This document shows, in pieces, positions 2,018 through 22,984 of a stretch of DNA of 46,634 nucleotides; within the stretch, counting starts at the first letter, position 1, and each line of letters starts with the position of its first letter. Location: assembly GCA_029976695.1 (NCBI GenBank), contig JARQTN010000152.1:75194-121827 (forward strand). Reading direction: 5' to 3'. The notes under the pieces are model-generated. The model was given only the letters and a program-made list of their open reading frames with translations, was not told the origin of the DNA and ran no database searches. This stretch comes from Lewinellaceae bacterium. Its GTDB lineage: Bacteria; Bacteroidota; Bacteroidia; Chitinophagales; Saprospiraceae. The position numbers and the translations under genes are program-made.

Positions 2018-2728
2018 TTAATTATTTCTACCCCTTCCACGGCCCCTTGATTTCCTGCCTTTATCGCGTTTTCCGAGGCCGGCATTCAGGGACAACTCAC
2101 GTTTCCCTAATACTTCCCCCTTGCAGATCCAGACCTTCACGCCGATTTTACCATATACCGTTTGTGCTTCCTTCAGGCTGTAGTCGATATCTGCACGGAA
2201 TGTATGCAATGGGGTCCTTCCGTCCTTGAACTCCTCCGAGCGAGCCATCTCCGCACCATTGAGCCTGCCGGATATCCGTACCTTGATCCCCTCGGCACCA
2301 GCCCTCATGGAAGACTGGATAGCCATTTTGATGGCGCGACGATAATTGATCCTTGATTCAATCTGCTTGGCGATGGATTCAGCCACGATCGCGGCATCAA
2401 GCTCTGGCTTGCGGATCTCAATGATATTGATCTGGACATCCATGCCTGTCAGCTGGCGAATTTCTTCGCGGATATTATCCACCTCGGTTCCTCCTTTGCC
2501 AATAATGATCCCTGGGCGGGAGGTATGAATGGTGATCGTGATTCTCTTCAGGGTGCGTTCAATGACGATCCTTGCGATCCCGCCTTTCTGGATACGTGCA
2601 TTCAGATACTGCCTGATTTTTGTATCCTGAACGACTTTGGAAGCAAAATCTTTACCTCCAAACCAGTTGGATTCCCATCCCCTGATTATTCCAAGCCTGT
2701 TGCCAATCGGATTTGTCTTCTGACCCAT
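2018..2728 (-). CDS. rpsC: 30S ribosomal protein S3
   Basis: The protein has 236 residues with the S3 start [18 protein letters not shown]. The type II KH domain is visible around residues 60-85 ([20 protein letters not shown]). The C-terminal domain has [20 protein letters not shown] and ends in a Gly/Arg-rich tail ([11 protein letters not shown]). S3 lines the mRNA entry channel. The gene follows rplV after 27 bases. Confidence 0.98.
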
Positions 2729-2755
2729 TAGTTTGATTGATTGAGTTTGATTTTA

Positions 2756-3211
2756 TTATTCGTTGTCGTTTTCAACCTGTTCTTCAAGTTCTTCACCGAC
2801 CTCATCGTCTGCATCGATATATTCCACATCATCTTCCGAAGCAGGATACAATTCTTTATCGAGTGGTATGCGGTTTTCCACCACGATCGTAAGATGGTTC
2901 GTTCTTTTCCTGATCCTGTGGGCACGACCATGCGGTGCAGGCCGAAACCTTTTCAACATGGTCCCCTCATCAACCAGGAGCGTTTTAATATAGAGGTCGT
3001 AATCATCAGCACTTACAACCATATCATTTTTGTATTCCCAGTTGGCAATCGCAGACAAAAGGGTCTTTTCAAGCCACTGAGCGGCTTCCTTCTTCGTGTA
3101 CTTTAAAATATTCAGGGCTTCGTCCACATCCTTACCGCGAACATTATCTGCCACCAGCCGCATTTTCCTTGCGGACATGGGGCAACTCTTCAGTTTTGCA
3201 ATAGCTTCCAT
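2756..3211 (-). CDS. rplV: 50S ribosomal protein L22 with acidic C-terminal tail
   Basis: Residues 1-115 are typical L22 (MEAIAKLKSCPMSARKMRLV; RPAPHGRAHRIRKRTNHLTI), whose beta-hairpin reaches into the exit tunnel. The protein is 151 residues instead of about 110. The extra tail is strongly acidic: 15 of its last 27 residues are Asp or Glu. This contrasts with the basic tail of L29 in the same cluster. The tail is read straight from the sequence with no frame break; its role is unknown. Confidence 0.95.
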   Translation of the reverse strand: MEAIAKLKSCPMSARKMRLVADNVRGKDVDEALNILKYTKKEAAQWLEKTLLSAIANWEYKNDMVVSADDYDLYIKTLLVDEGTMLKRFRPAPHGRAHRIRKRTNHLTIVVENRIPLDKELYPASEDDVEYIDADDEVGEELEEQVENDNE

Positions 3212-3231
3212 TTGTCTGAATTATTTAAGTC

Positions 3232-3498
3232 TTATTTCCTGTTTCCAGAATGTCCCTTGAATGTCCTCGTTGGAGAAAATTCTCCAAGCTTGTGTCCAAC
3301 CATGTTTTCGGTGATGAACACCGGCACAAAAGTTTTCCCATTATGGACGGCAATTGTCTGACCGACCATATCAGGAATGATCATTGATGACCGTGACCAG
3401 GTTTTGATCACCGTTTTCTTTTTGTTTGCCCGCGCTTTTTCCACCTTTTTCATAAGCTTGTGGAAAACATATGGTCCTTTCTTTACTGATCTTGCCAT
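3232..3498 (-). CDS. rpsS: 30S ribosomal protein S19
   Basis: The protein has 88 residues and the hallmark motifs [30 protein letters not shown] and [16 protein letters not shown]19 forms a complex with S13 in the head of the small subunit near the A site. It lies 20 bases before rplV and 16 bases after rplB, in standard S10 operon order. Confidence 0.98.
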
Positions 3499-3514
3499 GC
3501 TTTCGCTGATTTAA

Positions 3515-4351
3515 TTATTTCTTATTCTTGGTTTTCCTCCTGGAAATGATCAATTTGCTGGAGTATTTATTCTTGCTCCTGGTCTTGTACCCCTTCGCGA
3601 TCAATCCCTTCCTTGATCTTGGGTGGCCTCCTGAAGCCCTTCCTTCACCACCTCCCATCGGGTGATCTACCGGGTTCATGGCAACGCCGCGCACGCGCGG
3701 CCTTCTTCCGAGCCATCTCTTCCGCCCGGCCTTGCCAAGTACTTTCTGGCTGTGGTCAGAATTGGAAACAGATCCGACTGTGGCTTTGCAAGTCAGAAGC
3801 ACCCTGCGCACTTCCCCTGAAGGCAGTTTCACTATGGCATGCTTTCCTTCCCTGCCCATCAATACCCCATAAGATCCCGCACTCCTGGCCAGGATGCCAC
3901 CGTTGCCCGGATGCATCTCGATATTATGAATGACCGCACCGAGGGGGATTTCACTCAGGTACATTGCATTACCGGTCTCAGGTGTGACGCCTTTTCCGGA
4001 ATCAATGGTCATGCCGACCTGAATTCCCTGGGGCGCGAGGATATATCTTTTCTCGCCGTCCTGATATTGCACCAGCGCAATGAAAGCAGACCTGTTCGGA
4101 TCATATTCTACCGTCTTGATCTCAGCGGACATATTCTCCTTGTCACGCTTAAAATCAATGATCCGGTACCTGCGCTTATGACCTCCGCCACGTTGGCGGA
4201 TCGTCATGCGTCCCTGATTATTCCTCCCGCCACTTTTCTTAAGCGGAGCCAGGAGGCTCTTTTCAGGTGTATCGGTAGTCAGTTCCGCAAAGGCATTTCC
4301 GACCAATGTGCGCGTACCTGGGGTAACCGGACTGAACTTTTTAATTGGCAT
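3515..4351 (-). CDS. rplB: 50S ribosomal protein L2
   Basis: The protein is 278 residues, normal for L2. The C-terminal region contains [20 protein letters not shown], which carries the conserved His close to the peptidyl transferase centre, and GHPRSRKG. The N-terminal RNA-binding region has [20 protein letters not shown]. It is one of the most conserved large-subunit proteins and needed for subunit association. Confidence 0.98.
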
Positions 4352-4391
4352 AACTCAATTTTTATAATCTTCTGTAATTCAGAGGGTTCAT

Positions 4392-4688
4392 TTAAATGTC
4401 ACCGAAGTGATCAATTACTTCACCATCAGCCAGGGTCACAACAGCCTTTTTATAGGCAGATTTGCGTCCTGTCAGGATACCGGACCTGGTTGACCTGTTT
4501 TTCTGTTTTGCAGGCATGACCAGCGTATTGACTGATTCCACAGTTACACTGTACAGATCCTCTACGGCTTTACGGATCTCAATTTTATTCGCTTTCTTGT
4601 CCACCACAAAGCTGTACTGATTCCTTTCTTCGGACAGGGTTTCTGCCTTCTCAGTGATCAACGGCTTGATTAAAATAGTTTTCGGCAT
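4392..4688 (-). CDS. rplW: 50S ribosomal protein L23
   Basis: The protein has 98 residues with the L23 pattern (ILIKPLITEKAETLSEERNQ; FVVDKKANKIEIRKAVEDLY; KKAVVTLADGEVI). L23 sits at the tunnel exit and is the docking site for trigger factor and SRP. It starts 11 bases after rplD ends. The loop after VNTLVMPAKQKNR is typical of the family. Confidence 0.96.
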   Translation of the reverse strand: MPKTILIKPLITEKAETLSEERNQYSFVVDKKANKIEIRKAVEDLYSVTVESVNTLVMPAKQKNRSTRSGILTGRKSAYKKAVVTLADGEVIDHFGDI

Positions 4689-4699
4689 AGCTCAGATAT

Positions 4700-5335
4700 T
4701 TAAAGGCTTTCAGGTGCAAATTTTTCCCTGATCATCGAGACTGCATTTTCCGATATGATCAGCTTGTTCGCATTCATGATTGCATAGGTATTCAAATCGG
4801 AAGCATTGATGACACTGGCATCCTGAATATTTCGGGATGAGAGGTACAGGTTGTGATCGTACCCCGAAACAACGACCAATGCTTTATTACTAGCCTCAAG
4901 ATTATTCAGGATTTTTACGAATTCTCTTGTCTTTGGAGTCTCCAGCGTAAAGTCTTCAAGAACGATCAATTGACCTCCCTGAGCCTTAGCTGACAGTGCA
5001 GACCTCCGGGCCAGTTGTTTGACTTTCTTGTTCAGACGCACATCGTAATTGCGCGGCCTAGGGCCAAACACGCGACCACCCTTCCTGAAGAGAGGGTTCT
5101 TCAGCGAACCGGCACGTGCGGTACCTGTTCCCTTCTGTCGTTTGATCTTCCTTGTTGAAAAGGATATTTCTCCCTTTTCTTTCGTCTTGTGCGTCCCCTG
5201 CCTTTGCCTTGCCAGGTATTGCTTCACAGAAAGGTAGATCGCATGTTCATTCGGTGCAATCTCAAAAACTTCACCGGGCAATTCAACCGTGCGACCTGTT
5301 TTCTCCCCCTGAATATTTAATACATCTACAGTCAT
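4700..5335 (-). CDS. rplD: 50S ribosomal protein L4
   Basis: The protein has 211 residues. The signature region KRQKGTGTARAGSLKNPLFR and GGRVFGPRPRNYDVRLNKKV is present, corresponding to the loop that lines the exit tunnel. In E. coli L4 is also the autogenous regulator of the S10 operon; no comparable leader hairpin was recognised here. The ATG at 5335 lies 6 bases from the rplC stop. Confidence 0.98.
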   Translation of the reverse strand: MTVDVLNIQGEKTGRTVELPGEVFEIAPNEHAIYLSVKQYLARQRQGTHKTKEKGEISFSTRKIKRQKGTGTARAGSLKNPLFRKGGRVFGPRPRNYDVRLNKKVKQLARRSALSAKAQGGQLIVLEDFTLETPKTREFVKILNNLEASNKALVVVSGYDHNLYLSSRNIQDASVINASDLNTYAIMNANKLIISENAVSMIREKFAPESL

Positions 5336-5341
5336 GATGCG

Positions 5342-5962
5342 TTACTTTTCAATGATTACAATAGATCCTTTATGTCCCGGCACTGCTCCTTTGATCAGGA
5401 TAAGATTCTGTTCAGGGAACAATTTCAATACCTGCAAATTCTTCACTTTCACGCGTTTACCTCCGGTGCGACCAGCCATCCGCATGCCCTTGAAGACCTT
5501 ACTCGGATAAGAAGATGCACCGATTGAACCAGGCGCGCGCATTCTGTTATGCTGCCCGTGCGTGGCGTCACCAACTCCCCGGAACCCATGCCTTTTCACA
5601 ACCCCCTGGAAACCTTTTCCTTTGCTGGTCCCAATCGCGTTGACAATATCTCCTTCAGCGAAGACCTCGTCCATGGAGATGAGATCACCGAGTGATTTAT
5701 CAATTCCAAAATTCCGGAACTCGACAACCTTTGATTTAGGGCCCGTTTTGGCACGATCGAAATGACCCATCAAGGCTTTGCTCGTATTCTTGGCCTTGGC
5801 ATCCCCAAAACCAAGTTGGGTTGCATCATATCCATCGGTTTCAACAGTTTTCCTCTGTGTCACGACATTGGGGTTCGCCTGGATGATGGTACAGGGAATG
5901 TTTTTCCCCTCCTCATCAAAGATGCTTGTCATCCCAATCTTTTTACCAATGAGTCCGTTCAC
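5342..5962 (-). CDS. rplC: 50S ribosomal protein L3
   Basis: The protein has 206 residues with the L3 start [19 protein letters not shown] and the extended loop [20 protein letters not shown] and [11 protein letters not shown], which includes the Gln methylated in E. coli L3. L3 initiates large-subunit assembly and reaches the peptidyl transferase centre. A 122-base non-coding spacer separates it from rpsJ; nothing else was recognised there. Confidence 0.98.
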
Positions 5963-6084
5963 TTTTAAAAAATTTAATTTTCAAATGTCATTCCGTCAAA
6001 CCTATGGACACCTTGCGGCGCCAGAGGTACTCAAAGCCATCAACATGTTTTGCGACAACTGGCGAGCAGGTCGCAGGCTGATGC

Positions 6085-6393
6085 TTAGGTCAGCTTAACC
6101 TGGATATCAACACCTGAGGGGAGCTCCAGTTTGGAGAGCGCATCCACCGTCTTTTGAGTAGGCGTGTAAATCTCGATCAAGCGTTTATGCGTCCTTAACT
6201 GGAACTGCTCACGAGATTTCTTATTTACGTGCGGTGAACGCAGAACTGTAAATACTTCTTTCTCGGTGGGCAGCGGAATCGGACCAGTTACAACAGCACC
6301 GCTGTTGCGAACTGTCTTTACAATCTTTTCTGTCGATTTGTCGACCAGATTATGATCGTAAGAACGCAGTTTAATCCGAATTTTTTGATTCAT
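6085..6393 (-). CDS. rpsJ: 30S ribosomal protein S10
   Basis: The protein has 102 residues, starting [20 protein letters not shown] and containing [20 protein letters not shown] and the loop [13 protein letters not shown]10 (NusE) belongs to the 30S head and also acts in transcription antitermination with NusB. It directly follows fusA with a 45-base gap. In E. coli tuf follows fusA and the S10 operon is separate, so this arrangement fuses the two. Confidence 0.98.
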
Positions 6394-6438
6394 ACCTCAA
6401 CCTAAATTATAATCAAATTGATCTATCCAATTCTTACT

Positions 6439-8574
6439 TTACACATTCACTTCCCCCCGTGCTTTTTCGATCACAGTATCTGCGATGTTTTTCGGCACCG
6501 GAGCATAGTGAGAAAATTCCATGGTCGAACTTGCACGACCGGATGTAATCGTCCTGAGTTGCGTGACATAACCGAACATTTCAGACAATGGAACTTCGCC
6601 AAGGATTGCGACAGCACCACCGGCCCTCGATTTCTGCCCTTTCGGCACACCTCTTCTCCTGTTCAGGTCACCAATCACAGCGCCCACATACTCCTCAGGG
6701 GAGACGATTTCAAGTTTCATGATCGGCTCAAGCAATACAGGCTTGCATTTTGACGCAGCAGCCCTGAAACCCTCTTTTGCACAAAGCTCAAAGGCAATGG
6801 GTTTGGAGTCAACAGGGTGTGTGGCTCCATCGTACAGCCTGACTTTCATGCTGTCGATGCTGAAGCTCGCAAGAACCCCATTTTCCATCATGGCATTGAA
6901 GCCTTTCACGATTGAAGGGAAGTACTCTTTTGGGATGGACCCCCCTACGATGTTATTGACAAACTGAAGCTTCACCTTGCCGCTTTTGAAGTCTTCACTT
7001 TCAAGGAATTCTTCATCAGCAGGGCCCAGCTCAAACTGCATTTGTGCAAACAAACCGGCACCTCCGGACTGTTTCTTCAATCTTTCTGTATGATCAACGG
7101 TTGCTGTCAATGCTTCCTTGTAGTTCACCTGGGGTGCACCCTGGTTGCATTCAACCTTGAATTCACGCCTTAACCTGTCGACAATGATTTCCAGGTGAAG
7201 TTCACCCATGCCGCTGATAATGGTCTGATTCGTGTCCTCATCATACCTGACCCGAAATGTCGGATCCTCTTCTGCAAGCTTGGCCAAAGCCATGCCCAAT
7301 TTATCGAGATCTTTCTGTGATTTTGGCTCAACGGCGACACCGATCACAGGATCGGGGAAAGTCATGCTCTCAAGCACGATCGGTTTGTCCAGGTCGCAGA
7401 GCGTATCACCTGTCCTGAGGTCCTTGAACCCAACACCTGCGGCGATGTCACCTGCTTCGACTACATCGATCGGATTTTGCTTGTTTGCGTGCATTTGATA
7501 CAAACGTGATATCCTCTCCTTGTTTCCGGTCCTTGTATTCAGGATATATGAACCAGCCTCGAGCCTGCCGGAGTAGACGCGAAAAAATGCGAGTCTTCCG
7601 ACATACGGATCGGTTGCAATCTTGAATGCGAGCGCGGCAAATGGTTCATTCACATCAGGTTTCCGCACTTCCACTTCTTCTGTGTCGGGATTGACCCCTT
7701 CAATTGCCTCCACATCAAGCGGCGAAGGCATAAACGCACAAACGGCATCAAGAAGCGCCTGGACACCTTTATTTTTAAACGCAGAACCGCACATCATCGG
7801 CACAATACTCATATCACATACAGCTGCGCGGATTGCTGAACGAATTTCATCTGCTGAAATAGAATCAGGATCCTCAAAATATTTCTCCATGAGGGACTCA
7901 TCATACTCGGCAACTGCTTCAAGGAGCTTTTCTCTGTATTCTTCAACGGTATCCACCAGGTCAGCCGGAATGTCCACGACCTCGAATGTCATTCCCATAT
8001 CATCCTCGTTCCAGACGATCGCCTGGTTGGTGATCAGGTCAACCACACCTTTGAAGGTTTCTTCAGCCCCAATCGGTATCTGGAGAGGAACAGCATTTGC
8101 GCCGAGCTTCTCTTTCACATCATTGACGACATTGAAAAAGTCTGCTCCCGAACGGTCCATTTTATTGACGAAACCGATCCTTGGCACACGGTACCTGTCA
8201 GCCTGCCTCCAAACAGTTTCAGATTGTGGCTCAACGCCGGAAACGGCACAAAACAAAGCGACTGTGCCATCAAGTACACGCAATGACCTTTCTACCTCGA
8301 CGGTAAAGTCAACGTGTCCCGGAGTATCGATGATATTGATCGAATAAGGCTGGTCTTTCCATTTCCAGGAAGTCTTTGTGGCAGCAGAAGTGATCGTAAT
8401 CCCCCTTTCCTGTTCCTGTTCCATCCAGTCCATCGTTGCCGCACCATCATGTACCTCGCCTATCTTGTGGCTGATGCCGGTATAGTACAGGACCCGCTCA
8501 GTCGTCGTTGTCTTTCCAGCATCGATGTGTGCTGCGATTCCAATGTTTCTGGTATATTTTAGGTCTTTATTCAT
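6439..8574 (-). CDS. fusA: Translation elongation factor G
   Basis: The protein has 711 residues, normal for EF-G. The GTPase motifs are visible: G1 [16 protein letters not shown] near residue 15, G2-region [13 protein letters not shown]3 DTPGHVDF and G4 NKMDR. Domain IV/V segments include [15 protein letters not shown] and [23 protein letters not shown] drives ribosomal translocation and, with RRF, ribosome recycling. It lies between rpsG and rpsJ with short gaps on both sides and no tuf. Confidence 0.98.
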
Positions 8575-8601
8575 GATGATCGTATCAGCAAGATGGTTAA
8601 A

Positions 8602-9069
8602 TTATACGCGGAAATGTGCAAAGGCCCTGTTTGATTCGGCCATTCTGTGTGTATCTTCCTTCCTTTTTACTGCAGCGCCTTCACCCTTGCTTGCAGCGAT
8701 CAGCTCGTTGGCCAGTTTTTCAGCCATTCCTTTGCCGCTCCTTTCCCGTGAAAAACGGATGAGCCATTTCATCCCGATGGAGATCTTCCGGCTTGGATGG
8801 ATCTCAGTAGGGATCTGGAAGGTTGCCCCCCCGATCCTCCTGCTGCGTACCTCCACCTGAGGCATGGCATTGTTCAGTGCTTTCTTCCACACTTCATGCT
8901 CATTCTCTCCCGTCTTTTCCTTGATGATGTCCATAGCATCATAAAAGAGCTTGAAGGCAACTCCCTTCTTTCCCCTCCACATCAGGTTATTGACAAATTT
9001 GGTGACCATGGTATCCTGGTACCTTGGATCAGGTTGAATGACTCTTAATTTTGGCTTCCTTTTCCTCAT
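8602..9069 (-). CDS. rpsG: 30S ribosomal protein S7
   Basis: The protein has 155 residues with [20 protein letters not shown], the family motif [20 protein letters not shown] and a C-terminal [14 protein letters not shown]7 organises the 3' major domain of 16S rRNA and lines the E site; in E. coli it represses the str operon. Gap to rpsL is 31 bases. The N-terminus [17 protein letters not shown] is Bacteroidota-like. Confidence 0.97.
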
Positions 9070-9100
9070 TCTGATATCAAGTGTAAGCGTTCAGTTTATA

Positions 9101-9475
9101 TTATTTCTTTGGTCTCTTGGTACCATACTTTGACCGGCTCTGAAGTCGATCTGAAACACCTGCTGTGTCAAGTGCCCCGCGTACGATTGTATACCTTACG
9201 CCAGGAAGATCTTTCACACGGCCGCCCCGGATCAGGACGATTGAGTGCTCCTGGAGATTGTGTCCCTCCCCGGGAATATATGCAATCACCTCAATTCCAT
9301 TCGTGAGCCTGACTTTTGCTACCTTCCGCAGTGCTGAGTTCGGCTTCTTTGGTGTTGTCGTATAAACACGGGTACAAACCCCCCTTTTCTGCGGACAGCC
9401 TGCAAGCGCACGTGATTTACTTTTGGTGATCACCTGCTTTCTTCCTTTTTTTACAAGCTGGTTGATCGTAGGCAT
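9101..9475 (-). CDS. rpsL: 30S ribosomal protein S12
   Basis: The protein has 124 residues and starts [15 protein letters not shown]. The streptomycin-determining positions look wild type: lysines in [13 protein letters not shown] (residues 43-44) and in [12 protein letters not shown], where the Asp is the usual methylthiolation site. S12 monitors codon-anticodon pairing at the decoding centre. It is the first gene of the cluster, with a consensus promoter upstream. Confidence 0.98.
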
Positions 9476-15517: not shown

Positions 15518-16510
15518 TCAATCAAGAAGCTTTTGGTTTACTGTATCTGCTATTTCATCTATCGGCAAATCCTTGATACATCTAAAATGTCCTTTCGGAC
15601 AGGACTCAAACCCGATCTTGGAACAAGGCCTGCAAGCCAGGCCAGGATGCTCAAAGCGGCGTTCCCAGACTTGCGTATCCCCAAAATACGGCGACATGCC
15701 AAACTCCGGGATCGTATTTCCCCATACCGAGATCAGGGGCTTCTTCAGCGCTGCCGCCATATGCATGACGCCCGTATCATGGGAGACCACAAGTCTGGCC
15801 GCAGCAATGCATGCTGCCGACTGATTCAATGTCAGCATCCCGCAAAGGTTGTGCACATGGGGGCCAGCATGCTCCGTGATGGCACGGGCCTTTTCCAGTT
15901 CAGCAGTACCTCCCAGGAGTAAAACTGACACCTCTATTTGCCGGCACAACGTGATCATTTGTCTGGCAGTCAGGCACTTTGTCTCGTGCGCCGCACCCAC
16001 AGAAATACAGATATGTTCCCGAATGCCCAGCTCCTCCAGATACTCACTTGCCCATTGCGTATCGCGATCAGGAATGAAATAATCCAGCCCTGCCCCGTCG
16101 TTCAGGACACCCAGGTGGGCAACTGTATCCATATATCTGTCCACGATATGTCGCTTCGGCAACACATCCACATGCAGGTTCACCTTCAGCCACTTCTGCA
16201 GGTTGATCTTGTGAAATGAAGTTGCCGGCCTGCCAAGCCTCTGCTTCAGGATAAAAGTCCTGAGGTTGTGGTGCAGGTCCAGGACATAATCAAATCGCTC
16301 ATGCTTTAGCTGAAGAAGCACCTCACCTGTCCCTTTTTCGATCGTATGGATCCGGTCGATGTAAGGATTCTGTTCAAGCAGGATACGGAATCCGGCCTTG
16401 GTCAGGTAATGCACCTCCACCTCCAATTGCATGGACAAACAGCGAACCACCGGGGTGGTCAGGATGATATCCCCGATACTGCTGAACCGGACAACAAGTA
16501 CTTTTAGCAT
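15518..16510 (-). CDS. Glycosyltransferase family 9 (LPS heptosyltransferase-like)
   Basis: A 330-residue GT-B fold enzyme starting MLKVLVVRFSSIGDIILTTP, the GT9 hallmark with the catalytic Asp in SIGDI. The C-terminal half has SVGAAHETKCLTARQMITLC and SHDTGVMHMAAALKKPLISV, the nucleotide-sugar binding DTG...HMAAA motif. The pattern CRPCSKIGFESCPKGHFRCI near the end is the cysteine cluster found in many GT9 members. Such enzymes add heptose or related sugars to lipid A core; the actual sugar here is unknown. No LPS neighbours are visible apart from an MsbA-like exporter far away at 35648. Confidence 0.9.
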   Translation of the reverse strand: MLKVLVVRFSSIGDIILTTPVVRCLSMQLEVEVHYLTKAGFRILLEQNPYIDRIHTIEKGTGEVLLQLKHERFDYVLDLHHNLRTFILKQRLGRPATSFHKINLQKWLKVNLHVDVLPKRHIVDRYMDTVAHLGVLNDGAGLDYFIPDRDTQWASEYLEELGIREHICISVGAAHETKCLTARQMITLCRQIEVSVLLLGGTAELEKARAITEHAGPHVHNLCGMLTLNQSAACIAAARLVVSHDTGVMHMAAALKKPLISVWGNTIPEFGMSPYFGDTQVWERRFEHPGLACRPCSKIGFESCPKGHFRCIKDLPIDEIADTVNQKLLD

Positions 16511-16807
16511 CAGGATAATGATTTAATCCATCCGGGCAGGAAACGATGACAACGCATCCAGCAATCCCGGTTTAGGTTGTAAAACTATCTGATTTTTGGG
16601 AATCGCCCTGTCTGCTCGGCCAATTCAAAAAATGTTGGGTACATGCTTGATCAGGGGTATCAGATGCACACTGTACGCGTATTTTTCGCACCTGATTTCT
16701 GGCATTCTAATTGTTAAAAAACTGTGAATCGATCCACCTGGTCTTTTAGGTTGGGAAAATCATTGTACATTTATGCATTCAATTGTTTCACGTAAAAGAA
16801 CAAAATC
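16511..16807. other. Intergenic region between divergent genes
   Basis: This 297-base spacer separates the glycosyltransferase from the cysteine-rich secreted protein. No open frame of note and no RNA gene was recognised. TACATTTA at 16766-16773, about 35 bases before the ATG of the secreted protein, is a one-mismatch -7 box on the plus strand without a clear -33 partner. Confidence 0.4.
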
Positions 16808-17308
16808 ATGAAAAGAATTCTGATCCTGTTTTCACTGATGGCCTTTTTCGCAATTACCGGCATGCAGGCACAAAAAGCATGCTGTGCTTCAAAGGCAAAA
16901 TCTGCAGCAAGCTGCGCTGGCAAGGCGTCAGCAGCCAAAACAGCTACAGCTGATGTCGAAATGGCCGCAGCCAAACTTGCTTCATTAGATGAGAACATTG
17001 ACCGGAAAGTTTGTGCGGAGTCAGGTAAAGTGACATACCTGAAAAAGGAAGTATGCGAAAAATCTGGAAAAGTATCTTTCGTAAATGTTGAGTACAACGC
17101 CGACCTTGGTGCGTTCGTCAATGTTTCGCCAAGCGAAATGCACGGCAAAAAGGCAAGCTGCGGAGGAAGCAAAACAGCCGAAGCAAAGGCATGTTGCTCA
17201 GGAAAGGAAAAAGCATCCTGCTGCTCGAAAAGCGCAAGTGCAGAAGATCATAATGGCACTGAAAAAGCGAAAGTCAAAGTGGTGAAAGCTGCGAGCGGGA
17301 CAAAGTGA
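16808..17308 (+). CDS. Cysteine-rich secreted protein of unknown function
   Basis: A 166-residue protein with a clear signal peptide (residues 1-21, hydrophobic core ILILFSLMAFFAITG, cleavage probably after MQA). The mature part is rich in Ala, Lys and Ser and has ten cysteines: 25, 26, 36, 69, 83, 118, 129, 130, 138 and 139, three of them as adjacent pairs. Residues 66-96 hold two tandem units, KVCAESGKVTYLKK and EVCEKSGKVSFVNV. CC pairs suggest metal binding or disulfide cross-linking, but no known family is recognised. It is monocistronic, ended by a strong terminator before the sulfonolipid-type genes. Confidence 0.75.
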   Translation: MKRILILFSLMAFFAITGMQAQKACCASKAKSAASCAGKASAAKTATADVEMAAAKLASLDENIDRKVCAESGKVTYLKKEVCEKSGKVSFVNVEYNADLGAFVNVSPSEMHGKKASCGGSKTAEAKACCSGKEKASCCSKSASAEDHNGTEKAKVKVVKAASGTK

Positions 17309-17328
17309 CAGGCAACGATATCCCTAAG

Positions 17329-17363
17329 AAAAAAGCCAATCCCGGACCGGGATTGGCTTTTTT
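17329..17363 (+). terminator. Strong intrinsic terminator, symmetric
   Basis: A 12-bp stem AGCCAATCCCGG / CCGGGATTGGCT is flanked by an A-run on the left and a T-run on the right, so it can work in both directions. It begins 21 bases after the stop of the cysteine-rich protein and insulates it from the following operon. Confidence 0.88.
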
Positions 17364-17392
17364 CTTCACTATATGTTCATAATATTATTCAT

Positions 17393-17400
17393 TATCTTTG
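17393..17400 (+). promoter_or_regulatory. -7 box of the PLP-enzyme operon
   Basis: TATCTTTG is a perfect TAnnTTTG match, 28 bases before the ATG at 17428 and about 30 bases after the preceding terminator. A -33 TTG is not obvious. Predicted leader about 20 bases. Confidence 0.5.
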
Positions 17401-17427
17401 TTTCTATTACATTCAGAATTTAGTGAT

Positions 17428-18567
17428 ATGAATGCCTATCCTGAAATTCCCGGTCGCGTTAGAAAACTTCCCACATCCGTAACGAATTCCAAACTCGAAC
17501 CAAAGTGGCATGAAAACATACTGGAGACAGTTGGAAACACGCCCATGGTCAAACTGAAAACCTTTTCCAGGTTGATGGGCTGCACGGTCCTTGGAAAGCT
17601 GGAGTCCTTTAACCCCGGGCTTTCTGCAAAAGACCGGATCGCGATGGAAGTGATCACACAGGCGGAAAAAGAAGGGAAAATCAAACCCGGCGGGACGATC
17701 ATTGAATCCACATCCGGGAACACGGGATACAGTATTGCCATGGCTTGCATCGTACTGGGGTATAAATGCATCCTGACAATCACAGACAAGAGCTCGGAGG
17801 AAAAGATCAATACGCTCAAAGCCCTGGGTGCCAGGGTCATCGTGTGTCCAAGTTCTGTCAAGTCGGATGACCCGCTGTCCTACTATTCCCAGGCAGCCCG
17901 CATGAACAAGGAAATACCGAATTCGTTTTACGTCAACCAGTACTTCAATGATGCCAATTTCGTGGCGCATTACAAATCAACCGGACCCGAGATCTGGGAT
18001 CAGACAGGAGGCCAGGTGACCCATTACATTGCCACATGCGGGACTGGAGGGACAATTTCCGGGGCAGCCAAATACCTGAAAGAGAAAAACCCCGATGTGC
18101 AGATCGTCGCGGTGGATGCCGAGGGTTCAGTGCTTACAAAGTACTTTGAAACAGGTGAGCTTGACCGTTCAGAGATCCATCCCTATTTGCTGGAAGGCGT
18201 CGGAAAGAACATTATTCCCAGCAATGTCCATTTTGACCTGATCGACCAGTTTGTCAAGGTAGATGACAAAAGCTCTGCATTCCGAGCCAGGCAATTAGTC
18301 AAACGCGAAGGGATCTTTGCAGGCTACTCTAGCGGTGCAGTGATCCAGTCACTTTTTCAGATCAAGGACCAGTTTAAGGAAGATGATGTGGTGGTTTGCC
18401 TGTTTGCTGACCATGGTGGCAAATATCTGAGTAAGATTTACAACAATGGCTGGATGCAGAAGCAGGGATTTATCAGGAGTATCAGCAAATACGCATCCAC
18501 CTATAAAATTCAAAAGAGGCTCGAAAGGGTCCTCAACAAGTACGTAAAGTATTATGGAAATATTTGA
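17428..18567 (+). CDS. PLP-dependent cystathionine beta-synthase-like enzyme; candidate cysteate synthase
   Basis: A 379-residue fold type II PLP enzyme without heme or CBS domains. PLP lysine Lys68 is in NPGLSAKDR, the substrate loop is ESTSGNTG (residues 93-100) and the phosphate loop CGTGGTISG begins at residue 204. Generic annotation would be cysteine synthase or cystathionine beta-synthase. Its stop overlaps the next gene, an alpha-oxoamine synthase, by 14 bases. That pairing is known for capnine (sulfonolipid) synthesis, where such an enzyme makes L-cysteate from O-phosphoserine and sulfite; I infer this role. The ATG at 17428 is preferred over an upstream TTG. A family cysteine synthase role remains possible. 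Confidence 0.85.
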   Translation: MNAYPEIPGRVRKLPTSVTNSKLEPKWHENILETVGNTPMVKLKTFSRLMGCTVLGKLESFNPGLSAKDRIAMEVITQAEKEGKIKPGGTIIESTSGNTGYSIAMACIVLGYKCILTITDKSSEEKINTLKALGARVIVCPSSVKSDDPLSYYSQAARMNKEIPNSFYVNQYFNDANFVAHYKSTGPEIWDQTGGQVTHYIATCGTGGTISGAAKYLKEKNPDVQIVAVDAEGSVLTKYFETGELDRSEIHPYLLEGVGKNIIPSNVHFDLIDQFVKVDDKSSAFRARQLVKREGIFAGYSSGAVIQSLFQIKDQFKEDDVVVCLFADHGGKYLSKIYNNGWMQKQGFIRSISKYASTYKIQKRLERVLNKYVKYYGNI

Positions 18568-19804
18568 GAGAATTCGGCAGCAACCCGGCCCGCTCAGCCA
18601 GTATGCAGGAGTTGGTGAAGGGTACTATCTCTTCCCTGAATTAGAGGGAGAGATCGGCAGCAGGATGCGGTTCAAGGGTCGTGAGGTGATCATGTGGAGC
18701 GTGAATAATTACCTTGGCCTGGCGAATCATCCGGAGATCAGAAAAGCAGATGCCGAGGCCGCCAAAAAATGGGGACTCGCTTACCCGATGGGCGCTCGCC
18801 TGATGACCGGGGAGACTGCCCTGCATAAAAAGCTGGAAAGAGAACTTGCCGAACTGGTGCAAAAAGAGGCAGCGGCTGTCGTAAACTATGGTTACCCGGG
18901 TGTACTTTCATCGATTGACAGCCTGTTGTCCAGGCGCGATGTCGTGGTATATGACTCCAATAGCCACGGATGCATGGTAGACGGCACGAGGCTGCACGTT
19001 GGAAAGCGTTTCTCATACAAGCACAATGATATCAAAAGCCTGGAGGTCAACCTCGAAAGGGCCACCAAGGTCGTGGAGGAAACAGGTGGTGGCATCCTGG
19101 TCATCACAGAAGGTGTCTTTGGCATGCGGGGCAGCCAGGGGATCCTGAAAGAGATTGTGGCACTAAAGGAAAAATACAACTTCCGGTTTTATGTGGACGA
19201 TGCACATGGATTCGGTACGCTTGGCAAAGGAGGCGCCGGAACGGGTGTGGAACAAGGTTGCCAGGATGGAATTGATATTTATTTTGCCACATTCGCCAAA
19301 GCGTTTGCAGCGATTGGCGGGTTTATTGCCGGGGATGCGGATATCATCAGGCATCTCCAGTATGCTATGAGGTCGCAAATCCACGCCAAATCCCTCCCTA
19401 TGGTTTATGTTGAAGGGAACCTCAAGAGACTGGATATGATGCGCACGCATCCCGAATTCCAGGAGAAGCTCTGGTATAATGCCCGGAAACTCCAGAACGG
19501 ATTAAGGGAAAGGGGGCTGAATATTGGCGAGCCAAACGCGGTTGTCACGCCTGTATTCCTGAGTGGTACTGCGTTTGAAGCATCACAACTTGTCATGGAC
19601 CTGAGGGAGAATTATGGGATCTTCTGCACGATGGTCATTTATCCCGTGGTACCGAAAGACATGATCCTCCTGCGACTGATCCCGACAGCTGCGCACACGG
19701 ATGAAGATATTGAAACTACACTGGAGGCATTTTCTTCAGTTGCAGAAAAATTGAGAAACAAGGAGTATTCTGATGTTGTGGTCAATCCTCTGAAAGAATC
19801 CTGA
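18554..19804 (+). CDS. Alpha-oxoamine synthase (PLP); candidate cysteate fatty-acyltransferase
   Basis: A 416-residue fold type I PLP enzyme of the KBL/BioF/serine palmitoyltransferase family, which condenses an amino acid with an acyl thioester and releases CO2. VDDAHGFGTLG (Asp215, Asp216, His218) binds the cofactor and Lys249 in ATFAKAFAAIGGF is the PLP lysine; MWSVNNYLGLANHPE is the family N-terminal motif. Candidates are glycine C-acetyltransferase, serine palmitoyltransferase or cysteate acyltransferase. The 14-base overlap with a beta-replacing PLP enzyme gene favours 3-ketocapnine formation (inference). No threonine dehydrogenase or biotin genes are nearby, which argues against KBL and BioF. 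Confidence 0.88.
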   Translation: MEIFERIRQQPGPLSQYAGVGEGYYLFPELEGEIGSRMRFKGREVIMWSVNNYLGLANHPEIRKADAEAAKKWGLAYPMGARLMTGETALHKKLERELAELVQKEAAAVVNYGYPGVLSSIDSLLSRRDVVVYDSNSHGCMVDGTRLHVGKRFSYKHNDIKSLEVNLERATKVVEETGGGILVITEGVFGMRGSQGILKEIVALKEKYNFRFYVDDAHGFGTLGKGGAGTGVEQGCQDGIDIYFATFAKAFAAIGGFIAGDADIIRHLQYAMRSQIHAKSLPMVYVEGNLKRLDMMRTHPEFQEKLWYNARKLQNGLRERGLNIGEPNAVVTPVFLSGTAFEASQLVMDLRENYGIFCTMVIYPVVPKDMILLRLIPTAAHTDEDIETTLEAFSSVAEKLRNKEYSDVVVNPLKES

Positions 19805-19840
19805 TCCAACAGACCGGATACAGTACCGAATACGAGAAGG

Positions 19841-19870
19841 CCACCTGCTGCAAAGTGGGTGGTTTTTTTT
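19841..19870 (+). terminator. Terminator after the PLP-enzyme operon
   Basis: CCACCT (19841-19846) can pair with GGGTGG (19857-19862, one G-T pair), followed directly by a run of eight T. It lies 37 bases beyond the acyltransferase stop and touches the stop codon of the convergent SDR gene. Confidence 0.5.
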
Positions 19871-20897
19871 ATGCCCTCCCGTTGCGATACCAATCCACGG
19901 CTTCCCTGACACCGGCCTCAAGGCTGTACCTGGGGGTATAGCCAAGCATTTGCTTCGCCTTTGAAATGTCAATGATCCAGTTCAGGGCCGTGATTTCCCT
20001 GACTTTGTAGGGAGAGAGATGAAGTGGCTTTCTGACGATCTGGTTGCCAAGCAGCATACTGTAACTGATCCCCATCATCATCCAGGTGGGGATGCGCAAA
20101 GGGATCGGATTGACGTCAAGGGCATCCTTGATGAGTCTATTCAGCTCTGTCTGTGTATATACCTCCCCGTCCGAAACATTGAAGATTTCACGGCTGACCT
20201 GGTCCTTTTCGATACTGCGAAAAATAAAACCAACAAGGTCCTTCACGTACAGAAATGAGGATTTCTGTCTCGGGCTTCCGACCCGGACCTCAATCCCCTT
20301 TTCCATCATGTTCATGATTCGGACAAGTAATTTTGTGTCCCTTGGCCCATACACAGCGGTTGGCCGGAAAATCACATAGTTCAAATCTTGAATCTGCTGC
20401 AATTTGATTTCCGCCTGCCTTTTGCTCACCCCGTAAGGAGTCGTCGGGTTTGGCTCCCTCGCTTCAGTGATCGGTTCGAATGTTTCTTCATTCCCAGGAC
20501 CCAAAGCGGCCATTGAACTGATAAATATAAATTTCTTGAACCGGCTGTGTTTTTCCTTCAGTTCATTTGCGAAGAAGGGGGTAAAATCTCCGTTCCCGGT
20601 ATAAAATTCCTCGATTCTTTTTGGACGGTTTACCGCTGCAGCATGAATGACATAGTCAAATTCGATCCCGTGTTCACGGTATTTGATGAGATTTTCACTG
20701 ACTTCTGCAGGCCTTGTAAAATCAAATGGATAGAGGTCCAGATGCAATTTTTCCATGATCGTCCGTTCATTGGACGACTGGACCGTTGCAAAGACCCTGT
20801 ATCCGCGCTTCCTCCCTTCCTCAACGAGAAAGCTGCCGATAAAACCACTGGCACCTGTAATCAACAAGTTTCCTTTCGACCCTTCTACTCGTGGCAA
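19869..20897 (-). CDS. Extended SDR: NAD-dependent epimerase/dehydratase-like reductase
   Basis: A 342-residue Rossmann-fold protein. The cofactor loop is LLITGASGFIGSFL near residue 11, the catalytic Tyr-x3-Lys is TPYGVSKRQAE around residue 155 and the Ser partner is in FIFISSMAALG. The family covers sugar epimerases, sterol dehydrogenases and ketoreductases. Because it converges on the two PLP-enzyme genes, it is a reasonable candidate for the 3-ketocapnine reductase, but opposite orientation makes this weaker than the pairing of the PLP enzymes. A TTG-N17-TATTTTTG promoter lies upstream in the gap to hutU. Confidence 0.88.
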   Translation of the reverse strand: MPRVEGSKGNLLITGASGFIGSFLVEEGRKRGYRVFATVQSSNERTIMEKLHLDLYPFDFTRPAEVSENLIKYREHGIEFDYVIHAAAVNRPKRIEEFYTGNGDFTPFFANELKEKHSRFKKFIFISSMAALGPGNEETFEPITEAREPNPTTPYGVSKRQAEIKLQQIQDLNYVIFRPTAVYGPRDTKLLVRIMNMMEKGIEVRVGSPRQKSSFLYVKDLVGFIFRSIEKDQVSREIFNVSDGEVYTQTELNRLIKDALDVNPIPLRIPTWMMMGISYSMLLGNQIVRKPLHLSPYKVREITALNWIIDISKAKQMLGYTPRYSLEAGVREAVDWYRNGRA

Positions 20898-20938
20898 TTC
20901 CTTTTCCTTTTAAGTGATTGGTTTGTTACTTTGAGTTG

Positions 20939-20966
20939 CAAAAATAAGATAAGCATATGATATCAA
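20939..20966 (-). promoter_or_regulatory. Candidate promoter of the SDR gene
   Basis: Minus strand: TTG (20966-20964), a 17-base spacer and TATTTTTG (20946-20939), a full -7 match, about 42 bases upstream of the ATG. The -33 part lies within the first codons of hutU. On the plus strand TTACTTTG (20926-20933), one mismatch, could serve hutU. Confidence 0.4.
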
Positions 20967-22984
20967 CCGATACATTCAGGCAGGCAATAGTGAAGGGCAT
21001 TCCAAATGAACTGCCCGTATTGAAGCCTTTGGACAAAAATGTCCCACATGCCCCCATTCGCAATATTGAATCCCTGTCCAGGGATGAGAAAATCCTGGCA
21101 ATAAAAAATGCACTCCGGTATTTCCCGGAAACATGGCATGAAATACTTGCTCCGGAATTTGCACAGGAACTGGACACATACGGGCGCATTTACATGTACA
21201 GGTTCAGACCAGCATATGCCATGCACGCAAGAAGCATTGATGCGTACCCGGCAAAATCCCGTCAGGCAGCTGCCATCATGCTCATGATCCAAAACAACCT
21301 GGACCCCAAAGTAGCCAAATACCCCCATGAGCTCATTACCTATGGCGGAAACGGTGCTGTTTTCCAGAACTGGGCCCAATACCTTCTGACGATGTCCTAC
21401 CTCTCCCAAATGGAGGATGACCAGACACTTGTCTTGTATTCCGGGCACCCCATGGGCATCTTTCCTTCCAATGAGCGGGCGCCGAGGGTTGTCGTCACAA
21501 ACGGCATGATGATCCCGAATTACTCCAGAAAGGAGGACTGGAACAAATACAATGCCCTCGGGGTCACCCAGTATGGGCAAATGACGGCAGGATCCTTCAT
21601 GTATATCGGGCCCCAGGGGATCGTGCATGGCACAACGATCACATTGCTCAATGCCGGTCGCAAAAATGGCCTTGGAAAAGATTCCCTCCATGGAAAGCTC
21701 TTCATCACTTCAGGTCTGGGAGGAATGTCCGGCGCACAATCACTGGCAGGTTTGATCACCGGGGCGGTAACGATCATCGCCGAGGTCGATAAAAATGCAA
21801 TAAACCAGCGGAAAACAGACGGCTATATCAAGGGAGAGAATATCTACTCAGATCTTCCCAATCTCATGGACAAGGTTTCGGAATCGCTCGTGAAAGAGGA
21901 ACCCATTACATACGTGTATGCCGGCAACATCGTTGACCTGTGGGAATATGTTGCCGAAAATGAAATTGAAGTCCATTTAGGTTCTGATCAGACAAGCCTC
22001 CACAACATTGACGACCTCGGGTATTGTCCTGCTGGATACACATTTGAGGAAGCACAGGCATTGCTTTCATCAGACAAAGATGCCTTTATGGACGCTGTCC
22101 GGACTTCCCTGGTACGTCATGTGACAGCGGTCAACAAGGTAGCGGCAAGAGGCATGTATTTCTGGGATTATGGCAATGCTTTCCTTCTGGAAGCAGGTCA
22201 TGCACATGCAGATATCTGGAAAGATGAGGTAAAAGGAACCTACCGCTATCCATCCTATGTGGAGGATATCATGGGGCCTATGTGTTTCGACTTTGGTTTT
22301 GGCCCCTTCAGGTGGGTCTGCACAAGCGGGCTGAAGGAGGACCTGGACCTGACAGACAGAATTGCTGCAGATGTGCTTGCGCAACTTGACGCTGGTGCTC
22401 CTGAAGAGATCCGCAGCCAGTTGAAGGACAATATCAAATGGATCCAGCAAGCAGATGCGAACCTGCCGGTCGTGGGGTCAAAATCACGCATCCTGTATGC
22501 AGATGCAACCGGCCGGATCGAAATCGCAAGGGCATTCAACAAAGCGATCGCTTCGGGGGAACTCAAGGGGCCGGTTGTCCTGGGCAGGGATCATCACGAT
22601 GTGTCAGGCACAGATTCTCCATTCCGTGAAACGGCAAATATTTATGATGGCTCAAGGTTTACTGCAGATATGGCTGTGCACAATGTGATCGGAGATGCCT
22701 TTCGGGGTGCGACATGGGTGAGCCTGCACAATGGTGGCGGTGTTGGCTGGGGTGAGGTGATCAACGGCGGATTCGGGATGGTCCTGGATGGTTCGGACAG
22801 ATCCGAAGAAAACCTCGAATCCATGCTGCACTGGGATGTCAATAACGGAATCGCCCGCAGGAGCTGGGCACGCAATGAAGGCGCGATGCATGCGATCCGG
22901 AGGGCAATGGATCAAAACCCGAAATTAAAAGTCACCATGCCCGCAATTGTGGAAGAAACCATCCTTGAAAACCTGTTTGACTGA
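20957..22984 (+). CDS. hutU: Urocanate hydratase, long form
   Basis: A 675-residue urocanase that adds water to urocanate with tightly bound NAD+ to give imidazolonepropionate, the second step of histidine degradation. Highly conserved stretches are ELITYGGNGAVFQNWAQYLL, LVLYSGHPMGIFPS, RVVVTNGMMIPNYS and FGFGPFRWVCTSG. The common bacterial enzyme is about 555 residues; this length is that of the vertebrate-type and Bacteroidota long form. hutI lies about 19 kb away and hutH and hutG are not in the window. It converges with the next gene, with only 9 bases between stops. Confidence 0.95.
   Translation: MISTDTFRQAIVKGIPNELPVLKPLDKNVPHAPIRNIESLSRDEKILAIKNALRYFPETWHEILAPEFAQELDTYGRIYMYRFRPAYAMHARSIDAYPAKSRQAAAIMLMIQNNLDPKVAKYPHELITYGGNGAVFQNWAQYLLTMSYLSQMEDDQTLVLYSGHPMGIFPSNERAPRVVVTNGMMIPNYSRKEDWNKYNALGVTQYGQMTAGSFMYIGPQGIVHGTTITLLNAGRKNGLGKDSLHGKLFITSGLGGMSGAQSLAGLITGAVTIIAEVDKNAINQRKTDGYIKGENIYSDLPNLMDKVSESLVKEEPITYVYAGNIVDLWEYVAENEIEVHLGSDQTSLHNIDDLGYCPAGYTFEEAQALLSSDKDAFMDAVRTSLVRHVTAVNKVAARGMYFWDYGNAFLLEAGHAHADIWKDEVKGTYRYPSYVEDIMGPMCFDFGFGPFRWVCTSGLKEDLDLTDRIAADVLAQLDAGAPEEIRSQLKDNIKWIQQADANLPVVGSKSRILYADATGRIEIARAFNKAIASGELKGPVVLGRDHHDVSGTDSPFRETANIYDGSRFTADMAVHNVIGDAFRGATWVSLHNGGGVGWGEVINGGFGMVLDGSDRSEENLESMLHWDVNNGIARRSWARNEGAMHAIRRAMDQNPKLKVTMPAIVEETILENLFD

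Follow-up and report, generated by a model that had tools for sequence, protein, structure and literature searches.

A predicted capA–capB pair for the sulfonolipid backbone in a Lewinellaceae bacterium, with an extended SDR as candidate reductase

The best-described counterparts of the locus considered here are CapA and CapB of Capnocytophaga ochracea and Cys and CFAT of Chryseobacterium gleum, in each case a cysteate synthase together with a cysteate acyltransferase; the corresponding acyltransferase of Alistipes finegoldii, SulA, has a solved structure (7u7h). The C. ochracea proteins bear the consecutive accessions ACU93374.1 and ACU93375.1 in a passage of PMC12927429, which suggests that their genes are adjacent and that a capA–capB pairing as such is not new. 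According to passages of PMC9304779 and PMC3463246, sulfonolipids support gliding in environmental Bacteroidota, are linked to gut inflammation, and trigger choanoflagellate rosettes. Here, we describe two overlapping genes, capA (protein P0001) and capB (also called sulA; protein P0002), and an adjoining gene for an extended short-chain dehydrogenase/reductase (SDR; protein P0003), within a stretch of 46,634 nucleotides (the window; positions 75,194 to 121,827 of contig JARQTN010000152.1) from a Lewinellaceae bacterium whose 4.1-Mb draft genome (GCA_029976695.1) is 97% complete. Labels beginning with G denote genomes, G000 being the source genome, and those beginning with L denote fetched loci or contig stretches; residue numbers are those of P0001 and P0002 unless stated otherwise.

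Judged from the sequences, the pair most probably (probability of roughly 0.9) makes the sulfonate-bearing backbone of sulfonolipids, its two pyridoxal 5′-phosphate (PLP) enzymes acting as CapA and CapB. CapA would form cysteate from O-phosphoserine by exchanging its phosphate for sulfite, and CapB would join cysteate to an acyl group from acyl-acyl carrier protein (acyl-ACP), with loss of CO2, to yield 3-ketocapnine. Compared, through curated models and solved structures, with the C. ochracea and C. gleum proteins, this pair comes from a different Bacteroidota family; P0001 scores below the curated CapA threshold and extends at its C terminus beyond residue 349, the genes overlap (and are fused in some relatives), and an extended SDR adjoins them. 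P0002 has in common with SulA both the Schiff-base lysine and the diagnostic Lys281. On the supply of cysteate, the initial annotation of this DNA had named Alistipes alongside Capnocytophaga and Chitinophaga for the phosphoserine–sulfite route, a statement to be amended in that Alistipes cysteate is said, in a passage of PMC10191378, to come from an archaeal cysteate synthase homolog and not from CapA.

Structure matches, marker residues, and phylogeny make P0002 a very probable cysteate fatty acyltransferase (CapB/SulA). It carries the motif VDDAHG at residues 214 to 219 and Lys249 within FAKAF. Its nearest solved proteins, 28eh (585 bits) and 28fa, are both named cysteate-C-fatty acyltransferase, and SulA follows with 533 bits, versus 218 bits for the Sphingobacterium serine palmitoyltransferase (SPT) 3a2b and 201 bits for the next chain named BioF or KBL; a best match to glycine C-acetyltransferase (KBL) or SPT, which the initial annotation had put forward as the competing outcome, was thus not what we found. 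The alignment with SulA spans residues 2 to 408, including the Schiff-base lysine, and places P0002 Lys279 opposite SulA Lys281, the residue that, in a passage of Radka et al. (PMC9304779), marks SulA where SPT has Ala. Lysine occupies this position in all 110 distinct CapB sequences (distinct as cut; 108 of them differ over residues 60 to 379), whereas the three non-CapB α-oxoamine synthases that were aligned have Ala (two SPT-like genes) or Asn (the KBL of G000, which accounts for two rows). Six PLP- and substrate-binding residues of SulA (Asn53, His140, Asp217, His220, Lys251, and Arg376, equivalent to Asn51, His138, Asp215, His218, Lys249, and Arg374 of P0002) are likewise present in 110 of 110 CapB sequences, although they are common to other α-oxoamine synthases and, hence, are not diagnostic. 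In a phylogenetic tree, CapB (21 rows) and SPT (8 rows) separate with support of 100/100. Curated models are less informative: among the NCBIfam matches listed, P0002 falls below every cut-off, and its best model is the SPT model NF047600, on which it scores 275 bits versus a cut-off of 640 and versus 679 to 698 bits for the SPTs of six relatives.

For P0001, in turn, the predicted relationships make cysteate synthase (CapA) the very probable identity. It contains Lys68 in the motif AKDRIA (from residue 67), ESTSGNTG at residues 93 to 100, and CGTGGT at residues 204 to 209, and Pfam assigns it a PALP domain only, with no CBS domain. Its best solved match, 9k2p, was deposited with a generic name and scores 393 bits versus 289 bits for the best cystathionine beta-synthase (CBS); the cysteine synthase models, whose lead the initial annotation had named as a possible contradiction, score far lower. 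In an outgroup-free tree, 23 CapA-type and 32 CBS-type rows part at 100/100, and P0001 groups with the Flavobacterium genes that exceed the curated CapA cut-off, apart from CBS; this tree was built with long CBS rows only, retained just four of the short unlinked rows, and omitted L013, L028, L029, L044, and L047 as well as L191, which is cut by a contig end. A quick tree of 83 rows gives an SH-aLRT support of 99 to a CapA set of 36 rows.

The two groups also differ at individual residues. Position 260, in a loop of the form EG-G-K, is Lys in all 36 CapA rows and Glu in all 44 rows of the CBS type, with Gln in the outlier L244 and Pro in two cysteine synthases; position 102 is Ser in 33 of the 35 CapA rows with a letter there and Gly in 43 of 43 CBS-type rows. 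These 83-row counts include L013, L028, and L029 (linked, on long branches) and L245, which the residue table left out: all four have Lys260, and their residues at position 102 are S, G, S, and A, respectively. The CBS of the source genome itself (L120) has the same PALP domain as P0001 but is 459 aa long, carries a CBS domain, and has Glu260, Gly102, and Asp173 in place of the Lys, Ser, and Phe of P0001; an aromatic residue at position 173 is common to CapA. 9k2p aligns with Lys at position 260 and Ser at position 102, whereas the CBS 7xrq has Tyr in place of Lys260. We infer that Lys260 helps to bind phosphate or sulfite; AlphaFold models P0001 with a mean pLDDT of 80.9, and the loop before Lys260, residues 254 to 259, is one of the two regions modeled with the least certainty. 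Together, the structure matches, the marker lysines, and the 100/100 splits support, by sequence, the initial annotation's assignment of the pair to cysteate and 3-ketocapnine synthesis.

Several observations weigh against calling P0001 a CapA. Although CapA (NF053679) is its best NCBIfam model, the score of 480.3 bits misses the cut-off of 600; among the matches listed, both proteins of the pair stay below every NCBIfam cut-off. Ordinary full-length CBS proteins of Bacteroidota score just as high on that model (423 to 492 bits in the 20 genomes searched), and P0001 is more similar to the long CBS of its own genome (56% identity over 332 residues; G000:C20, L120) than to Flavobacterium CapA (50 to 54%). 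Neither the curated CapA score nor percent identity, taken alone, therefore discriminates between the two enzymes, and both were set aside as tests. When a distant cysteine-synthase outgroup is added, moreover, the node that joins Saprospiraceae and Flavobacterium CapA drops to 42/3, which leaves the position of the root open. Across the 20 genomes, only four genes, all from Flavobacterium, exceed 600 bits on the CapA model; given the CBS scores just cited, the cut-off appears to be fitted to close relatives of the characterized enzymes. More can be read from the margin between the two models: for P0001, the CBS model is second best at 382.7 bits (cut-off, 510), 98 bits below the CapA model, with cysteine synthase models far lower, and the fused protein of L049 (491.9 bits on the CapA model) shows a margin of 105 bits, whereas CBS proteins with both PALP and CBS domains give −8 bits (L120) and −28 bits (L168, from Flavobacterium), differences that owe part to those CBS domains. 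Even these two CBS proteins stay below the CBS cut-off, at 475 and 485 bits. That CBS proteins match P0001 on the CapA model also raised the idea that CapA was recruited from CBS independently in Saprospiraceae, an idea disfavored by the 100/100 split and the common Lys260, Ser102, and aromatic residue 173, with the caveat of the weak rooted join.

The distribution of the two genes in relatives points the same way, with exceptions. Of the 36 relatives in the family that we label f1, 21 have CapB (E ≤ 1e-100) and 15 do not; at least two P0001-like matches (E ≤ 1e-60) were seen in 20 genomes of the first group and 3 of the second (Fisher p of 4e-6, with G027 assigned two or more copies although its additional matches are fragments). 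Among the 21 CapB-positive relatives, a copy with Lys260 was seen in 18, and capA and capB share a strand and are no more than 7 kb apart in 10. Other gene neighborhoods were drawn from 81 CapB loci, comprising the window and 80 loci from named records (the best 80 of 567 matches), a sample biased toward relatives of P0002; because only 54 of the 81 loci have at least 5 kb on both sides, all neighbor counts from this set are lower bounds. A CapA match of at least 250 bits lies within 10 kb of capB in at least 12 of the 81. In three contigs from Saprospiraceae metagenome-assembled genomes (MAGs; L049, L056, and L073), the two are fused into proteins of 785 to 809 aa with CapA first; these fusions fall near one another in the tree and represent one lineage. 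Where duplicated records occur, G012 is the same DNA as L039 and G028 (of f1) the same as L059.

Other relatives run counter to this association. In G010 and G023, both with CapB, the second copy examined lacks Lys260; CapB-positive G017 has a single P0001-like copy; and G014 has a Lys260 copy yet no CapB match. Besides the fragments of G027, the remaining CapB-negative exception is G009, whose copy (L191) falls in the tree with the CapA–CapB fusions and is cut off by the end of its contig. Outside f1, none of the 15 CapB-positive relatives has more than one P0001-like match, and this match is of the CBS type, with Glu260, in the five placed in the tree (G044, G046, G048, G052, and G055). CapB is, thus, not always paired with this CapA, and cysteate in the CapB-positive relatives outside f1 probably comes from another source.

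The layout of the locus is consistent with a single transcription unit. The PLP motifs, the 14 bases shared by the reading frames of P0001 and P0002, and the extended SDR convergent on the pair, all recorded in the initial annotation, are present, as are the two terminators that it placed on either side of the pair. The upstream hairpin folds with −28.8 kcal/mol on the plus strand and −29.4 kcal/mol on the minus strand (z scores of −7.8 and −7.5), and the downstream hairpin with −19.2 kcal/mol (z score of −4.3) on the plus strand versus only −7.6 kcal/mol (z score of −1.0) on the minus strand. A simple terminator scan of positions 16500 to 21500 picked up the upstream hairpin, as a minus-strand site, and missed the downstream one, and its total over that range (4) was not above that of shuffled sequences (4.8). 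Given the overlap and the hairpins on both sides, capA and capB would be cotranscribed. The perfect box that it reported beside the pair is there, TATCTTTG, upstream of capA; it may be a Bacteroidota −7 element, and its position is plausible; however, TATCTTTG occurs in the window about as often as expected (2 observed versus 1.5 expected), as does TANNTTTG (23 versus 20.6), so the box carries no statistical weight, and we dropped it as evidence for a promoter. Upstream of capA, positions 16808 to 17308 (plus strand) encode a secreted-looking, Cys- and Ala-rich protein of 166 aa without a Pfam match, relatives of which also occur near capA in L039, L040, L217, L218, and L219. Coordinates of the locus and of related features are collected in Table 1.

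Table 1. Features of the cap locus in the window and of cap-linked genes in relatives (positions without an L label refer to the window)
Feature	Position	Strand	Description
capA (P0001)	17428-18567	+	ATG 17428 to stop 18567, 379 aa; predicted cysteate synthase (O-phosphoserine + sulfite), CBS-related PLP enzyme
capB/sulA (P0002)	18554-19804	+	ATG start, 416 aa; predicted cysteate C-fatty acyltransferase (3-ketocapnine), α-oxoamine synthase
Extended SDR (P0003)	19869-20897	-	342 aa from TTG start; Pfam Epimerase; candidate reductase
Upstream hairpin, bidirectional intrinsic terminator	17326-17366	both	Folding and T runs on both sides
Hairpin after capB, intrinsic terminator	19836-19867	+	Folding and T run
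TATCTTTG box	17393-17400	+	27 bases before capA ATG; possible -7 element, by position only
CapA–CapB fusions	L049 8891-11248; L056 1376-3733; L073 782-3211	+	Reading frames
GNAT beside capB	L048 11308-12444; L052 11307-12425	-	Also in L053, L063, L066, L070, L075, L109
Two-VOC protein	L217 9451-10512; L218 2050-3114; L061 5453-6511	+; -; +	Also in L041, L045, L049, L057, L058, L060, L073
Cupin_8-bearing cap clusters	L219 7240-15757; L221 7385-10974	+	Gene neighborhoods

For the next step of the pathway, P0003 would reduce either 3-ketocapnine itself or N-acyl-3-ketocapnine at the 3-keto group. The initial annotation had offered this SDR as a possible reductase, and the proposal gains independent support from the company that its homologs keep, while its role in the pathway is still a matter of inference. 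P0003 matches the Pfam family Epimerase with 110.6 bits and adh_short with 22.2 bits, the latter below the cut-off of 26.6; it begins almost directly at the Rossmann motif, and an export signal is not apparent by eye at its N terminus. Homologs at E ≤ 1e-30 are found in 12 of 60 genomes, the source genome included. In 6 of the 11 relatives (G002, G016, G035, G025, G032, and G015), the SDR follows spt and a GNAT gene in a row; in G003 and G033, it is divergent to an SPT-like gene (477 and 481 bits on the SPT model); in G012, it stands beside capB; and in G026 and G005, it does neither. An SPT, SPT-like, or CapB gene therefore adjoins the P0003 homolog in 9 of 11 relatives. The same closeness of an SDR to a sphingoid-base synthase is seen with spt, bcerS, and cerR of Caulobacter, with the difference from the spt–GNAT–SDR operons that, here, the SDR adjoins capB, is convergent with it, and has no GNAT match in the window. 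P0003 is set apart from Caulobacter CerR by the description of the latter, in a passage of PMC11087976, as a periplasmic protein with homology to NDUFA9. Because α-oxoamine synthases adjoin its homologs, P0003 was also considered as the partner of a KBL (an SDR-type threonine dehydrogenase), a reading rejected since six of those neighbors pass the SPT cut-off and two others have SPT as their best model, below its cut-off. The source genome shows no SPT: among its 15 PF00155 matches, eight were fetched, and, apart from CapB itself, the sole CapB match in these eight was a glycine C-acetyltransferase; the other seven, judged by score, reach at most 37.1 bits versus 184.5 bits for the SPT of a relative. 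The occurrence of P0003 homologs in spt operons makes the reductase assignment better than a mere neighbor effect, and P0003 is our favored candidate for the enzyme that acts on the CapB product, at what we regard as about even odds.

In a tree of 17 rows, P0003 joins L039 and L040 at 100/99; the wider set that holds them (87/93) also comprises the six operon SDRs and one more row, and it excludes four extended SDRs tried for comparison, of which G016 and G035 contributed two from their cap clusters. The identity of P0003 to the SDRs of the six spt operons and the two SPT-like neighbors is 27 to 34%. On the opposing side, identity to the six operon SDRs is as low as 30 to 34% (34% for G002), the P0003 family is present in CapB-positive and CapB-negative relatives alike, and a P0003-type SDR was found beside capB in only a few loci (at least 3 of 81). 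In addition, the verified 3-ketocapnine reductases of C. gleum and A. finegoldii are described, in a passage of PMC11211663, as 3-KDSR homologs unlinked to cfat and cys. The reaction proposed for P0003 is the same as that of these KCR/CapC enzymes, but by our reading 3-KDSR-type reductases would be classical SDRs, from which P0003 differs, by description, as an extended SDR.

These points leave a serious rival, less than even in our estimate but far from negligible: that capA and capB act as described, P0003 is an unrelated neighbor (for example, a nucleotide-sugar SDR or another extended SDR), and the reductase is a classical SDR encoded elsewhere, as in Chryseobacterium and Alistipes, where the verified enzymes are scattered in their genomes. 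The opposite strands of P0003 and capB, with a terminator between them, suit this explanation, and G000 has no shortage of candidates, with 23 PF00106 matches, 21 of which are above the cut-off. Furthermore, classical SDRs do occur within or near cap genes, in that G016 and G035 carry one in the interval separating capA from capB, G051 has one next to and convergent with capB, and in L045, L057, and L060 one lies upstream of capB at a distance of no more than 1.1 kb (those lying 5.3 to 5.6 kb from capB on the other strand, in L107, L112, and L117, were not counted as linked). Against it stand the 9 of 11 relatives with an adjoining SPT, SPT-like, or CapB gene and the fact that the cap-linked classical SDR has no close relative in G000, where its best match is 116 bits at 30% identity.

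N-acylation would complete the sulfonolipid, and we assigned no N-acyltransferase in G000; the literature passages covered (including those of PMC11211663, PMC10191378, and PMC9304779) leave the enzyme unnamed and the order of reduction and N-acylation open. In at least 8 of the 81 loci, a GNAT protein of ~372 aa is encoded convergent with capB, the match edges 69 to 493 bases apart, and shares 28 to 30% identity (103 to 180 bits) with the GNAT of the spt operons, which makes it a candidate sulfonolipid N-acyltransferase. Its hosts include Flavobacterium filum and Flavobacterium piscinae, the GNAT was not found in the capB loci of three other Flavobacterium (L050, L051, and L062) or in the window, and the eight loci may reflect one ancestral arrangement. 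One of them, L109, is titled as a Rhizobium sp. MAG despite its Flavobacterium-like arrangement and is probably misnamed or from a mixed bin. Elsewhere, the spt–GNAT–SDR genes of G002 have neighbors that match phosphoinositol dihydroceramide synthase (266.8 bits; cut-off, 480) and a BT1523-type PIP synthase (328.5 bits; cut-off, 350), both below the cut-off, along with a myo-inositol-1-phosphate synthase by Pfam. In L264 (positions 2606 to 9473, minus strand), an operon-like SPT–GNAT–SDR series is joined to genes that match inositol-sphingolipid synthesis, in a genome without a CapB match.

Two further kinds of genes recur near capB. A protein of ~355 aa with two VOC domains lies directly 3′ of capB on the same strand in at least 8 of the 81 loci and in G017, G029, G034, and G035, and 12 of the 13 genomes with this protein have CapB, counting the fragment of G009 (Fisher p of 0.02); VOC genes 9.7 kb away (L092 and L104) were not counted as linked, nor were HpnA-type genes 1.4 to 1.5 kb away (L049 and L073). 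Between capA and capB of G016 and G015 lies a gene for a Cupin_8 protein, homologs of which occur in 15 of 60 genomes, those without CapB included. L219 is a larger cap cluster, in which genes for a classical SDR, an extended SDR, and a protein of 996 aa are also present. As RIF-1 bears two extra hydroxyl groups (a passage of PMC3463246), the Cupin_8 gene offers a lead for these relatives, although not for G000, which has no Cupin_8 match.

The Cupin_8 gene also bears on the possibility that the pair serves a cysteate-derived long-chain base outside the N-acylated sulfonolipids, such as free capnine or a hydroxylated signal lipid. Free capnine does occur in Capnocytophaga (a passage of PMC9304779), and the Cupin_8 protein sits between capA and capB in two relatives; however, given the lack of a Cupin_8 match in G000, and with none of the scanned genes of the window pointing to a dedicated product, we regard this possibility as improbable. 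Least likely by far is that the pair consists of ordinary amino acid or sphingolipid genes, with P0001 as a short CBS or a cysteine synthase and P0002 as an SPT or an enzyme like KBL, since the features that would suggest this (the identity of P0001 to the long CBS, its second-best CBS model, and the SPT model as the best for P0002) are outweighed by both 100/100 splits, Lys260 versus Glu, Lys279, the structure matches, and the fusions, and since G000 already encodes a CBS with a CBS domain (L120) as well as a cysteine synthase (L121) and a KBL, both above their cut-offs.

Returning to capA and capB as the source of a sulfonolipid backbone, the kind of pathway is known, and what is new and testable are the links to a reductase and an acyltransferase. 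In the literature covered (titles, abstract openings, and few subscription papers), we found no named Saprospiraceae sulfonolipid locus, CapA–CapB fusion, or GNAT for capnine. Tentatively, and with less than even confidence, we suggest that some Bacteroidota build sulfonolipids with the three-enzyme set of bacterial sphingolipids, in which CapB would stand in for SPT, while two proteins akin to those of the spt operons, a GNAT acyltransferase and an extended SDR (P0003 in the present case), would serve as the counterpart of ceramide synthase and as the reductase, respectively, the latter possibly acting after N-acylation. If so, P0003 would represent a new class of 3-ketocapnine reductase, the GNAT on the Flavobacterium side would be the sulfonolipid N-acyltransferase, and the Cupin_8 and two-domain VOC proteins in the cap clusters of relatives would tailor the lipid. 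Whereas curated scores name neither enzyme of the pair, Lys260 in CapA and Lys279 in CapB allow both to be called, and the gene neighborhoods provide short lists of candidates for the reductase and the N-acyltransferase.

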